Below are positions 44,909-53,991 of a stretch of DNA of 64,000 bases, one piece after another. Within the stretch, counting starts at the first letter, position 1; every line of letters begins with the position of its first letter. The translations under genes and the position numbers were made by a program. The notes below the pieces were generated by a model, which ran no database searches, was not told the DNA's origin, and was given only the letters and a program-made list of their open reading frames with translations. Source of the stretch: Arctopsyche grandis (taxonomy: Eukaryota > Arthropoda > Insecta > Trichoptera > Hydropsychidae); assembly GCF_051622035.1 (NCBI RefSeq), contig NC_135362.1, positions 26,037,001 to 26,101,000 on the forward strand, given 5' to 3'.

Positions 44909-46775
44909 ATGGAATGTAGACTTTGCCTTCGTTTCTCTCCATCTGAGACTTCTGTCTCCATCTATAACAATCCTTATCCACTGGTTCAACGCATTTGGAC
45001 CTGCTGTCAGCTGCAGGTCAGTTTCGGTTTCTTTTGACTTGTAACATCTGATTAGTAAGTCTCATTTCCGCTTCACCATTTGCAGGTTGAGAGAGATGAC
45101 GGATTGCCAGATACGATATGTCCAGCGTGTGACAATAACCTAGAATTGCTTGGCAGTTTTCGAAACGTTTGTATTCAAAGTGACGAAAAATCTAAACTGA
45201 GGATAAATGAGTGTTTGCAGATCAAACCGGAAGAGATTTTGCTTGAAGATTTAGTGTGGAAGGATGAATCCAGTATCGATTCGCCGGTAAACGTTTGTAA
45301 ATCTCTCGTCACTGACAAGTCAAATAATAGAGAATTAGAATGGATCGATTCTAAGCAAAACGTCCATTTAATTGAAAATACAAATTCACTGGTAAAGTGA
45401 TATCTAATACCAGTGTAAAAATATCACACATATGAAATGATATAACATGCGTTTTATTTTACAGATGCGTGGAGAAAAAGTTGCTTCGCGTGGTTCTAAA
45501 TCGGAAATAATTATCGATATTGAGCCTTTATCATTACCAATAACTTCAGATAAAATATGTTCCACACATTCTAATATTAACAAATGTAATATTTGTTCAA
45601 AATCATTCGCTATAAAAGATCACCTTGCGGAACATGAAATATCTCATACTGGAAAAAAGCCGTACAAGTGTGATATTTGCTTGAAATCATTCGGCCGAAA
45701 ATCTTATCTTGTGAGGCACACTAAAAGATGTCATAATGGGGTAAAACCACACAAATGTAACATTTGCTTGAAATCATTCCTTAAGAAAGCTCACTACGTG
45801 CGACATGAAAGATCGCACTCCAGGGAAAAGCCCTACAAATGTGATATTTGCTTAGAATCGTTCTCTCAAAAGCATACTCTAACGGCACATATAATATCTC
45901 ATACTGGAGTAAAACCACACAAATGTAACATTTGCTTGAAATCATTCCTTACGAAATCTCACTACGTGCGACATGAAAGATCGCACACCGGCGAGAAGCC
46001 CTACAAATGTGATATCTGCTTAAAATCGTTCTTTGAAAATTCTACTCTCACCACACATAAAATATCCCATACTGGGGTAAAATCACACAATTGTAACATT
46101 TGCTTTAAATCATTCGTTACAAAATATAACTACGTGCAACATGAAAGATCGCACACCGGCGAAAAGCCGTACAAATGTGATATATGCTTAAAATCGTTCT
46201 CTCACAAGCCTTCTCTCAAGAGACATATAATGTGTCATTCTGGGGTAAAATCACAAAAAAGTAACATTTGTTTGAAATCATTCCTTACAAAATCTAACTA
46301 CGTGCAACATGAAAGATCGCACACCGGCGAAAAGCCGTACAAATGTGATATATGCTTAAAATCGTTCTCTCACAAATCTTCTCTCAATAAACATGTAATG
46401 TCTCATTCTGGGGTAAAATCACACAAATGTAACATTTGCTTTAAATCATTCGTTACAAAATATAACTGCGTGCAACATGAAAGATTGCACACCGGCGAAA
46501 AGCCGTACACATGTGATATATGCTTAAAATCGTTCTCTGACAAGTCTTCTCTCAGGACACATAAAATATTTCATACTGGGGTAAAACCATACAAATGTAA
46601 CATTTGCTTGAAATCATTCCTTACAAAATCTAACTATGTGCAACATGAAAGATCGCACACCGGCGAAAAGCCGTACAAATGTGATATCTGCTCAAAATTG
46701 TTCACAAGTACGTCTAACCTTTCAAGGCATATGAGCACTCATACTAGGTTAAAACCACACAAGTGTAACAAGTGA
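44909..46775 (+). CDS. ZAD-domain C2H2 zinc-finger protein 2 (C-terminally truncated)
   Basis: Exons 44909-45016, 45086-45391 and 45465-46775, all phase 0, encode 574 residues. The ZAD domain has MECRLC and ICPAC, and the linker DLVWKDESS and EIIIDIEPLSLP. There are 14 fingers. Finger 9 reads QKSNIC, so its first zinc-binding cysteine is serine. Odd- and even-numbered fingers form two alternating sequence classes (LTKSNYVQHERSH versus CDICLKSFSHK), so the array grew in two-finger, 168-bp steps. The protein ends HKCNK-stop in the first cysteine pair of the next finger, and eroded finger sequence continues to ~47200. The start is the ATG giving MECRLC, homologous to its two neighbours; an in-frame upstream ATG at 44837 lacks family support. 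Confidence 0.92.
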
Positions 46776-47200
46776 TGAAATCATTCGTTACACCACCGAA
46801 AATCCTAACAATTGTTATATTTGTTTAAAATCGTTCTCCCAAAAGTCTACTCTCACGGCACATATAATATCTCATACTGGGAAAAAAACTATACAAATGT
46901 GACATTTGTACAGAATCGTTCACTCATAAAAGTTATCTAATTATACACATGAATACGCATACCGGAGATAAACCACAAAATTTCGATGTCTACTTAAAAA
47001 CGTTCACTACGAAATATGAACTTATGAAAATTCTTACTTGGAAAAAGCTGAACAAATACGAAATTTGTTTAAAATCTTTTCCTGAAAAATCTTACCTTGC
47101 TTAAATTTGAAATATACACCCCATATAGGGTGAAAACCACACCGGTGTGACATTCGCTTAAAATCATTTGTTGTAAAATTTATACATATGTGAAACTCTA
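46776..47200 (+). pseudogene. Eroded zinc-finger tail of ZAD gene 2
   Basis: Shifting frames still read NCYICLKSFSQKSTLTAH, HTGEKP-like and KPHRCDIRLKSFVVK. They correspond to the last fingers of ZAD gene 3. Several frameshifts and stops make it non-coding. It may now be 3' UTR. Confidence 0.85.
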
Positions 47201-47412
47201 GGGTTATCAGCGCCCCTAATGCAACTTTCTACTCGGCGCCCTTACAATTTTTCCAAAAAAAAAAAAAATTAAAACCGTTACAATTTGTTATTCATATATG
47301 TATAACCTATTCATCATATTGTACTTTCATGTATACAGAACAATAGCTCTGACCAATTTATCCAGTTACTGAAAGGGCATAGAAACTACATATGAATGTT
47401 GAAAAATAAATT

Positions 47413-49541
47413 TGTGGGTTGACGTTATTTTACTGCAAGATTTTGAGACAAAATCGTTTTGATGCCAAACTCGATAATGATTTAGATTTTAATTTCAAAA
47501 GTGTGTATTCTTTTTAGAATGCGGTTAATGATAATATATTACATCAACCATTGAGACCGTCTCTTCCATCGCCAATTAAGACGAAAATGAGAATAAATCT
47601 AAACAAACAGCGAAGGAATGAGGGCCGCATATACAAGAATAAGATGAGGCAAAATCCTGCACGCACTCTAGGTACCATGTGTAAATGTCCTATGAAATGC
47701 TACATAAAAATTCCTTTGGCAATGAGAATTACCATTTTTAACGCTTTCTGGGGTCTTGAAGATTTTAACCAACAAAATGCATACCTTTTTTCAAACATAC
47801 AATGTATTAACGTTAAAAGAAGATATGGATGTACTAGGGCCGACGAGTCTTACAGGCAAAAAAGTTTCATTTTTAAACTGAAAATCAGCGGAGAAGATAT
47901 TCGTGTATGTAAGAAATCATTCCTAAGTATACACGGTCTTCAAAATAATCGGGGACGTATTAATAAAATTCAAATTAAAATTAAAGTATGCCGGGTTCCT
48001 ACAACAGACAAACGAGGTAAACATACCAATAGACCCAATAAGATAAGTGGAGCTCGTTTGGCTAGCATCCACGATCATATTGCTGCCATACCAAAATATC
48101 AGTCCCACTACAGTCGTACTTCCAATCCTGATAAAGCATATTTAAATTGTGATATAAATATTGCGTCTCTTTATAATACTCATTACCTTAAATACTGTGA
48201 AGAAATAAATTGTGAACCTGTATCTGTAGATAAGTATAGACGAGTATTTTGCCAAGAGTATAACATCGGTTTCAAACTTCCGAAATCCGATACGTGTAAA
48301 ACGTGTGACACACGTGATAAAAAAATGGGAAATGAAACTGATGAGGAACAAAACAGACAGTTGAGTATTGAGAAGGAACTTCATCTCAGATATGCCGAGA
48401 GCATGAAAACAAAAATGAAAACTTTGTCTTTATTAGCCAAAGAAAATTCTGACGTTCATGTAATAACTATAGATTTACAGCAAACCCTGCCCACTCCTAA
48501 ACTTACATGCGGGCCAGCATTCTATCTACGAAAGCTATGGACATTCAATGTTGGAATACACGATTGTGGCCAAGATGTGGGCTACATGTTTCTGTGGGAT
48601 GAGTCACAAGCAGCAAGAGGAAGTGATGAAATTGGAAGCTGCATACTGAAGTACTTGAAATTAAGAAATTTAGAGGGTAAACGTTTAATTATATTTTCTG
48701 ATGACTGTTGTGGTCAGATTAAAAATTGGAATATTACATCTCTATGGACATATTTAGCCTCTTCGGGTAATTTTGACGAAATTGAACACAATTTTTTAAT
48801 CTCTGGACATACAAACTTGCCGTCTGATAGGAGTTTTGGAAAAATCGAAAAATACCTTAGGGCACGAGAACCAAACATTTACTCACCAGATCACTGGAGA
48901 GAGGTTATCGAGAAGTGTAGTAAAAATAAAAAGTTTATTGTGACGAAAATGGAAATAAACGATTTTTTTAGCCTTTCAAACCTTAAAATCAATATTAATA
49001 CTAATAAGAAAGTTTGTGAAGATGGAACTCTATTAAAATTTGCAGAGGTAGTTTGTTTTCATTTTGCAAAAGATTTTCCTCTACAAATGAAAATTAAATA
49101 TAGTGAAAATGCAATTTATACTGAAGTAAACCTAAAACAAAAAGAACGATCTGTCCAAGATGTAAATTTAATTCCTAAATACAGCGCACCTCGAAAAATT
49201 AATAGTAAAAAAGTAAAAGACGTTTTAACACTGTTGCCTTATATACCAGTCACACACCATAATTTTTATAATAATCTCATCGCTGAACCTGAGGAGCCCA
49301 CAGAAGAAAAAAATGAACTGATAGGGTAATCGTTATTTTTTGCTTTTATTTTATATTGGTCTTTAGTGCCACTTTCATTTTATTTTATTAGTACCACTTG
49401 TGCTCATTTCATATTCATATAAAATTTATATTAATTAAACTAAATTTAATGTATAATGTACAAATTAATGATGACAATGTCATGTCATATCTTTGTATGT
49501 AATTATTAAAAAAAATTGGTGGAAAATAGTGTCAACCCACA
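47413..49541 (+). mobile_element. DNA transposon encoding a DUF7869-like protein
   Basis: Terminal inverted repeats TGTGGGTTGAC (47413-47423) and GTCAACCCACA (49531-49541) are perfect for 11 bp and continue imperfectly (ATTTT). The flanks share ATT on both sides, a possible 3-bp target duplication. The 2129-bp body is almost entirely one long open frame with no internal stop, unlike every other element in the window, so the insertion looks young. Superfamily not assigned. Confidence 0.7.
47587..49329 (+). CDS. DUF7869-like protein, putative transposase
   Basis: One exon from the first in-frame ATG (47587) gives 580 residues. The frame is open upstream to an in-frame TAG at about 47516 (ctttttag), which could instead be an acceptor for a 5' exon. 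Features in order: a Cys cluster CKCPMKC near residue 25, KSDTCKTCDTRDKK near 240, TIDLQQTLPTPKL (D at residue 296), LWDESQAARGSDEIGSC, IIFSDDCCGQIKN (D at 372), then SGHTNLPSDRSFGKIEKYL (D at 414). These blocks are the signature of a family I know from many arthropod and cnidarian gene models, associated with DUF7869. The evenly ordered acidic residues suggest an RNase-H-like (DDE/D) nuclease fold; that is inference. Many relatives have a Cys before the third Asp (CDRDFG), where this copy has Ser. The flanking TIRs argue that it is the transposase of its own element. Confidence 0.8.
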   Translation: MRINLNKQRRNEGRIYKNKMRQNPARTLGTMCKCPMKCYIKIPLAMRITIFNAFWGLEDFNQQNAYLFSNIQCINVKRRYGCTRADESYRQKSFIFKLKISGEDIRVCKKSFLSIHGLQNNRGRINKIQIKIKVCRVPTTDKRGKHTNRPNKISGARLASIHDHIAAIPKYQSHYSRTSNPDKAYLNCDINIASLYNTHYLKYCEEINCEPVSVDKYRRVFCQEYNIGFKLPKSDTCKTCDTRDKKMGNETDEEQNRQLSIEKELHLRYAESMKTKMKTLSLLAKENSDVHVITIDLQQTLPTPKLTCGPAFYLRKLWTFNVGIHDCGQDVGYMFLWDESQAARGSDEIGSCILKYLKLRNLEGKRLIIFSDDCCGQIKNWNITSLWTYLASSGNFDEIEHNFLISGHTNLPSDRSFGKIEKYLRAREPNIYSPDHWREVIEKCSKNKKFIVTKMEINDFFSLSNLKININTNKKVCEDGTLLKFAEVVCFHFAKDFPLQMKIKYSENAIYTEVNLKQKERSVQDVNLIPKYSAPRKINSKKVKDVLTLLPYIPVTHHNFYNNLIAEPEEPTEEKNELIG

Positions 49542-49989
49542 ATTTTTTATATGCACCATTTTATGTTTAAAAACTAATTTAAAATGTATAATTTTAAAAC
49601 TTATTAAAAATATTGACCTGATCGTGATATTTTATACAAAAAAAACCTCAAATTCGTATTTGGGTATGGCTTCCAGGTAAGACCCAAATGAAATGCAAAA
49701 AAAAACTTTCCGTTTTTCTTTTGCTTGACCGTTCATCATTTGTTTTCCTTGTTCTAATAATTTGTCTAAAACTATACCTATTCAGAATTTTCTGATCGAA
49801 AACTAAAAAATTTATATGTACATATATATAAAAAATAAAAATAAATAAATATGTAAAAAGAATAAAATAAATAAATGTAATAATTTTGATGATTTTTTAT
49901 AGATACCAACCTTTTTATTTTCGAATTTGTACGTAAACTTTTGTACAAAAACTACCTTTTTAATTTTTAAAAAATATATACAAACTTGT
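49542..49989. other. Intergenic, AT-rich, nothing recognised
   Basis: No gene or repeat ends. It lies between the transposon and an hAT end. Confidence 0.35.
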
Positions 49990-50084
49990 TTGAATTGGAT
50001 TCCAATAAGAATTTCTTTCATCCGGCCCTCCATACGTTTAAAATTCTGAACTGGCCTATATCTCAAAAAGGTTGGAGACCCCTG
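49990..50084 (-). mobile_element. hAT terminal fragment
   Basis: Reversed, it begins CAGGGGTCTCCAACCTTTTT, the common end of an hAT group, followed by GGAGGGCCGGATGAAAG. The other end was not located; a long deletion or a boundary further left is possible. Confidence 0.6.
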
Positions 50085-50389
50085 ATCTAAATCAATAATG
50101 TCTTCACCTAAATTGAAGTTTTTTCATATATATATATATAGATATTTTTTTTTTGTAAGAATAGTAAGCAAAAAATTCATAAGACCTGCACATAAATGCC
50201 AACATGGATGGATGATGGTTACATAAATTATGTACATAAGATGTAAATAAAAGATAAAATAAAACAAGATTTGTTGGTATTGTAGCTTATAGCTGAAAAC
50301 TCACGCAATTTAGACCAAATCATGCATGATAAATTGACAAGAGATATTACACTTTCGCATTTACATCATACATTTGCTTTTCTTGTGCG
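50085..50389 (+). repeat. Segmental-duplication copy upstream of ZAD gene 3
   Basis: It matches 43402-43550 and then 44733-44908 upstream of ZAD gene 2 (for example TTATAGCTGAAAACT and CATTTACATCATACATTTGC). The ~1.15-kb MITE-A/hAT block present at gene 2 is missing here, so this is the unoccupied arrangement. Confidence 0.8.
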
Positions 50390-53272: not shown

Positions 53273-53991
53273 TGGCAAAAGAAGTGCCCGAATGGTACCC
53301 AAAATAATGCAAAAACCTTCAGTGGCGACAGTAGGGGTGGAGTCCCCTATAAATAATTTTTCATTGATTATTCATATTTGTTAATTGTTATGACTTACGA
53401 GAGAGAAGCGCCAAAACAGAAGCTAAGTTAACGCGTTGTTTCTGGATTGCATCTCCATCTGACTGAATCAGTAAACTTTCTTACCTTTAGGCACATATAC
53501 TGATTTCTCAGGAATTCGAACGAAAGTCAGTTATGGCTCATGTTTGCTACGTTGGGGGCAACACCAAATTATTCAAATTGAAAAACGCTAATTCGACATA
53601 TTCGTTGTATGACGATCCTCGAGCGGTTACACACCTCATTGAAATTTCTGTATATATACAGTTTTCTGTATTTATACAGCTACCGCGAAATCCGTCTTGT
53701 GCAGCTATATACAGCATCAAACATGAGCCATAATTGACTTTCGTTCGAATTCCTGAGAAATCAGTATATGTACCTAAAGGTAAGAAAGTTTACTGATTCA
53801 GTCAGATGGATATGCAATCCAGAAACAACGCGTTAACTTAGCTTCTGTTTTGGCGCTTCTCTCTCGTAAGTCATAACAATTAATAAATATTAATAATGAA
53901 TGAAAAATTATTTTTAGGTGACTCCACCCCTACTGTCGCCACTGAAGGCTTTTGCATTATTTTGGGTACCATTCGGGCACTTCTTTTGCCA
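53273..53991. mobile_element. Large fold-back element, ~280-bp arms
   Basis: The left arm begins TGGCAAAAGAAGTGCCCGAA and the right ends TTCGGGCACTTCTTTTGCCA. The arms stay complementary over roughly 280 bp, for example GCGCCAAAACAGAAGCTAAG / CTTAGCTTCTGTTTTGGCGC and GAACGAAAGTCAGTTATGGC / GCCATAATTGACTTTCGTTC. A ~150-bp unpaired centre remains. Length 719 bp, non-coding. No convincing target duplication. Confidence 0.9.

Follow-up and report, generated by a model that had tools for sequence, protein, structure and literature searches.

A probable relic of a DUF7869-encoding, terminal-inverted-repeat transposon family between zinc-finger paralogues of Arctopsyche grandis

The open frame and its surroundings

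The window analyzed here is a 64-kb stretch of DNA (G000:C8:26037001-26101000) from an assembly of 475.7 Mb in 189 contigs. As the original prediction had stated, it holds a single uninterrupted reading frame located between two zinc-finger paralogues and directly after an eroded zinc-finger array. In an ORF scan of the window, this frame is open over 603 codons from 47518 to a stop codon ending at 49329, its first ATG lies at 47587, and an AG following a T-rich stretch stands directly 5' of position 47518. The assignment of the encoded product as a DUF7869-like protein was borne out by a Pfam profile search, in which it matched DUF7869 (PF25273) with an E-value of 1.2e-10 and a score of 41.7 bits, above the gathering cut-off of 26 bits. 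The ordered acidic motifs and the two Cys clusters that had been read from the sequence are likewise present in the window protein. The features considered below are as follows:

47196..47305, no strand assigned: unrelated dispersed repeat adjoining the left break (five other genomic matches)
47302..49570, + strand: TIR transposon copy encoding a DUF7869 protein, truncated so that neither true terminus is left (from homology limits and the absent terminus)
47413..47433, - strand: inner left subterminal site holding the left 11-bp repeat; two mismatches to a 21-base pattern
47505..47517, + strand: likely 3' splice site, T-rich then AG (splicing predicted from sequence); would have joined a first exon, lost here
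47518..49329, + strand: putative transposase second exon, open frame, with the DUF7869 match at residues 346-478 (ORF and Pfam)
48466..48498, + strand: TIDLQQTLPTP, putative first catalytic Asp (D319 of the frame)
48697..48726, + strand: SDDCCGQIKN, putative second catalytic Asp (D395)
48802..48840, + strand: SGHTNLPSDRSFG, putative third catalytic Asp (D437)
49521..49541, + strand: inner right subterminal site holding the right 11-bp repeat; one mismatch to the 21-base pattern
49563..50095, no strand assigned: unrelated dispersed repeat adjoining the right break (genome-wide matches)

The putative Asp triad is kept in the window copy, and from these motifs the transposase of the family is probably of the DDD type. 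A genome search with the window protein returned 26 matches, the window included, several of which are pieces of one copy. The DUF7869 cut-off was passed at two places, the window and a 618-codon frame at locus L003 that is 26-27% identical to the window protein and scores 29.8 bits.

Termini of the family and the place of the 11-bp repeats

The original prediction took a perfect 11-bp inverted pair, TGTGGGTTGAC, for the ends of an apparently intact element. The pair is indeed exact (47413-47423 and 49531-49541), and, with one mismatch allowed, the window contains no further match. At least two such matches also arose in 11 of 100 shuffles, so that the pair alone does not stand far above chance; we count it as real because the repeats recur at homologous places in other copies. 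Genome-wide, the 11-mer occurs at 144 places, vs 59 for a reversed control.

A genome search with 47393-49561 yielded 33 matches, the window included, many of which reach the query edge, 20 bp past the right 11-bp repeat, while three left-side matches start 11-13 bp outside the left one; alignment of the copies confirms that conservation extends tens of bases outside both repeats. Ten larger stretches were then compared, nine around near copies and one around a distant relative (L064), and outside the window-homologous part the copies lead to a common terminus, GAAGGCCTCGGGGCAAGATAGTGYCAACCCTCA. This family terminus is a 33-bp sequence starting GAAGGCCTC, which, at up to three mismatches, is found at 81 genomic places (41 forward, 40 reverse) vs none on either strand for the reversed control. 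By our own count of the match list, 35 of these places are of the window-family type and 46 are variant, the variant reading mostly GAAGGGCTC...ACCATCA and often occurring in pairs that span 79-158 bases end to end. Such pairs of the variant terminus GAAGGGCTCGGGGCAAGATAGTGTCAACCATCA lie on many contigs and are suggestive of a MITE family sharing these ends. The 22-base core of the terminus is absent from the 64-kb window at up to three mismatches.

Measured from the terminus to the equivalent of 47302, three left arms span ~440-570 bp and another, which contains an internal repeat, ~1.1 kb; right arms span ~170-200 bp in three copies. Target-site duplications (TSDs) were assessed in six short copies of 601-771 bp with both ends within one locus. 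Five carry an exact 4-bp duplication (AATT, AAAT, AAAT, ATAT and ATAT), and the sixth is without one, its flanks being AAAC and ATAC. AWWT adjoins 20 of 24 distinct termini vs a background of 6.6% of window positions, a sample in which all loci were chosen by likeness to the window copy and two termini (L040, L042), which lie in repeated zinc-finger loci, are only partly independent; the remaining four flanks are AACT, GTAC, AAAC and GTAT. The 4-bp AWWT duplication is thus a property seen on other copies of the family, the window copy being without ends.

The 11-bp repeats fit into this scheme as internal sequence. A 21-base subterminal pattern was read off the family copies, and its terminal matches hence arise by construction. 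Within 46700-50200 of the window it has two sites, with two and one mismatches, vs 0.25 expected, and both contain the 11-bp repeats. All seven other copies examined possess the terminus and one or more inner sites (0-0.23 expected per stretch). In six of the seven, a site coincides in position with one of the 11-bp repeats; in copy C13 there is no such site at up to five mismatches. By sequence comparison, the 11-bp repeats are parts of subterminal sites that resemble the terminus and face it, and such sites are likely bound by the transposase. The wider point is that inner subterminal repeats can mimic the ends of a transposon if a single window is considered in isolation.

These observations bear directly on the proposal that the locus is an intact, recently active small TIR element ending at the 11-bp repeats, a reading that draws on the exact inverted pair and the open frame and that we now regard as very improbable. 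Other copies continue through both repeats to termini that the window lacks, and the copies bearing the sites belong to larger elements whose termini and TSDs are different. Copies of the same genome therefore end elsewhere, an outcome that the original prediction had itself named as counting against its boundaries. The ATT on both outer flanks is present as described, but it is element sequence and not a target duplication, since identical or similar bases stand there in other copies.

A truncated copy and the state of its frame

Homology to the family stops on both sides of the frame. The left limit falls at 47302-47307 in each of the four near copies retaining the left side, and the right limit falls at 49568-49571 in five of the six copies having the right side and at 49590 in the sixth; the family's own terminal inverted repeats are not present at either end of the window copy. 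On the left, a query of 47190-47420 identified five non-family places with similarity to portions of 47196-47305; four of these end at 47303-47305, where transposon homology starts. On the right, a query of 49540-50230 gave 78 matches, the window included, many starting at 49557-49563 (query position 18-24) and extending to ~49804, then piecewise to ~50100. Two different dispersed repeats thus adjoin the fragment. The description as a TIR transposon accordingly holds for the ancestry of the copy but not for its intactness, as both termini and the first exon are missing.

The nature of that first exon is suggested by other copies. The left arm of copy C8, translated by eye, has a 42-codon frame ending at a GTATGT donor, which is also found in the left arms of C3 and C13 and reads ATATGT in that of C1. 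Nothing comparable to this arm is present where the window would be expected to carry it; small left-arm matches occur elsewhere in the window, far from the copy.

We consider it highly probable that the window copy is a truncated relic of a two-exon, DUF7869-encoding family of cut-and-paste DNA transposons. Pieced together from the arms of several copies, an intact element would measure ~2.9 kb and would be bounded by the 33-bp terminal inverted repeats starting GAAGGCCTC, with the core GCAARATARTGYCAACC recurring at subterminal places that are likely transposase-binding sites; no full-length intact copy was seen among the family copies examined. The transposase would be encoded by a short first exon of ~42 codons that is joined by splicing to the 603-codon exon, would bind the terminal and subterminal sites and cut by means of the D319, D395 and D437 triad, and the element would insert at AWWT with the 4-bp duplication seen in the short copies. 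The window copy would have lost its left arm, including the first exon, together with its right end, with other repeats now adjoining both breaks. It would be immobile by itself and, if expressed, could at most supply protein in trans, which the altered SDDCCGQI motif makes doubtful.

Persistence of the open frame in a copy without ends could instead reflect domestication, whereby the termini are gone and the host maintains the frame by selection, perhaps from the ATG at 47587 or through a new 5' exon. The frame has remained intact despite ~4% window-specific divergence (3.3-5.1% across trios of copies), and all three Asp motifs are retained. A rough neutral model, for which indel ratios had to be assumed, puts the probability of an intact frame at 8e-5 to 8e-4 for 4% divergence and at 0.009-0.03 for 2%, such that much of the divergence may date from a coding lineage or from host selection. 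Pairwise pN/pS for the window copy is 0.40 vs C3 and 0.41 vs C13, the two of three comparisons near 0.4 that favor a host gene, and 0.81 vs C10; among the copies themselves the ratio is 0.49 (C3, C10), 1.01 (C3, C13) and 0.88 (C10, C13). However, the frame was selected for study because it is open, and window-specific differences, scored at sites where two or more of eight copies can be compared and give the same base, are spread evenly over the three codon positions (7/239, 10/238 and 10/238; 9/460 outside the frame) with no positional bias. Two single positions in the frame (48927 and 49138) correspond to a gap common to two copies. The trios also indicate at most weak constraint, with 14 nonsynonymous and 6 synonymous changes on the window side in the trio with C3 and C10 (164 codons), 11 and 8 with C3 and C13 (123 codons), and 5 and 2 with C10 and C13 (70 codons); the window side has no stops and the other sides have 0 to 2.

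A further argument against domestication comes from the second Asp motif, a conserved motif in which three codons are altered (SDDCCGQIKN in the window, SDNCGGQNKN in C13). L003, L004 and L008 read SDSCGGQN, and the window's three changed residues are absent there. The SDNCGGQN-type motif is not wholly invariant, with SDNCGVLNKN in C3 and CAGQNKN in a broken piece in L013. In the third motif, the window's DRSFG corresponds to DRDFG in both C10 and C13 and to NRDFG in C3, and the variable position also varies in L003 and L008. Taken together, we judge domestication to be unlikely, and neither it nor recent activity, both of which the original prediction had drawn from intactness, finds good support. 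We read the pattern instead as coding constraint during the active life of the transposon, followed by relaxed decay. Quite unlikely, too, is a composite in which DUF7869 is the DDD catalytic domain of Sola2-like elements with inverted arrays of subterminal sites, and the host has retained the copy without its ends as a DNA-binding protein whose catalysis is altered.

Relatives and neighboring repeats

Among known systems, the relic's family resembles Sola2 in its TSD and may be called Sola2-like in its features, a likeness drawn from published descriptions. A 4-bp AWWT TSD is given for three Sola2-type families of Dictyostelium fasciculatum (PMC3627910), like the AT-rich AWWT duplication of the window family, and Sola elements are described as having a DDD transposase, 4-bp TSDs and lengths of mostly 2-9 kb (PMC10741241). 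For the window family, the corresponding Asp triad is predicted from motifs.

Pfam lists DUF7869 proteins as being of unknown function, whereas the present analysis connects the domain to an element family for which termini and a TSD are defined. The domain is abundant in arthropod gene models. With DUF7869 linked to a transposon family whose ends are defined, such gene models become recognizable as transposase-derived.

Several loci elsewhere carry traces of the family. A 471-codon open frame at L011:1438-2850 (G000:C8:11665048 region) has the family's N-terminal domain, 31% identical to window residues 47-191, and, after it, a Gln-rich stretch that lacks the catalytic motifs; from its sequence, it is a candidate host gene derived from the window transposon family. 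At L040, L041, L042 and L065 (G000:C9:4942308, 4948401 and 4935878), the same right-end fragment lies next to AAAT, at three places ~6 kb apart inside apparent zinc-finger coding sequence, and this zinc-finger locus seems to have been duplicated together with the transposon fragment. Within the window, 53273-53546 and 53718-53991 form an inverted repeat with arms of 274 bases that are 97% complementary and a 171-base spacer, possibly a foldback element.
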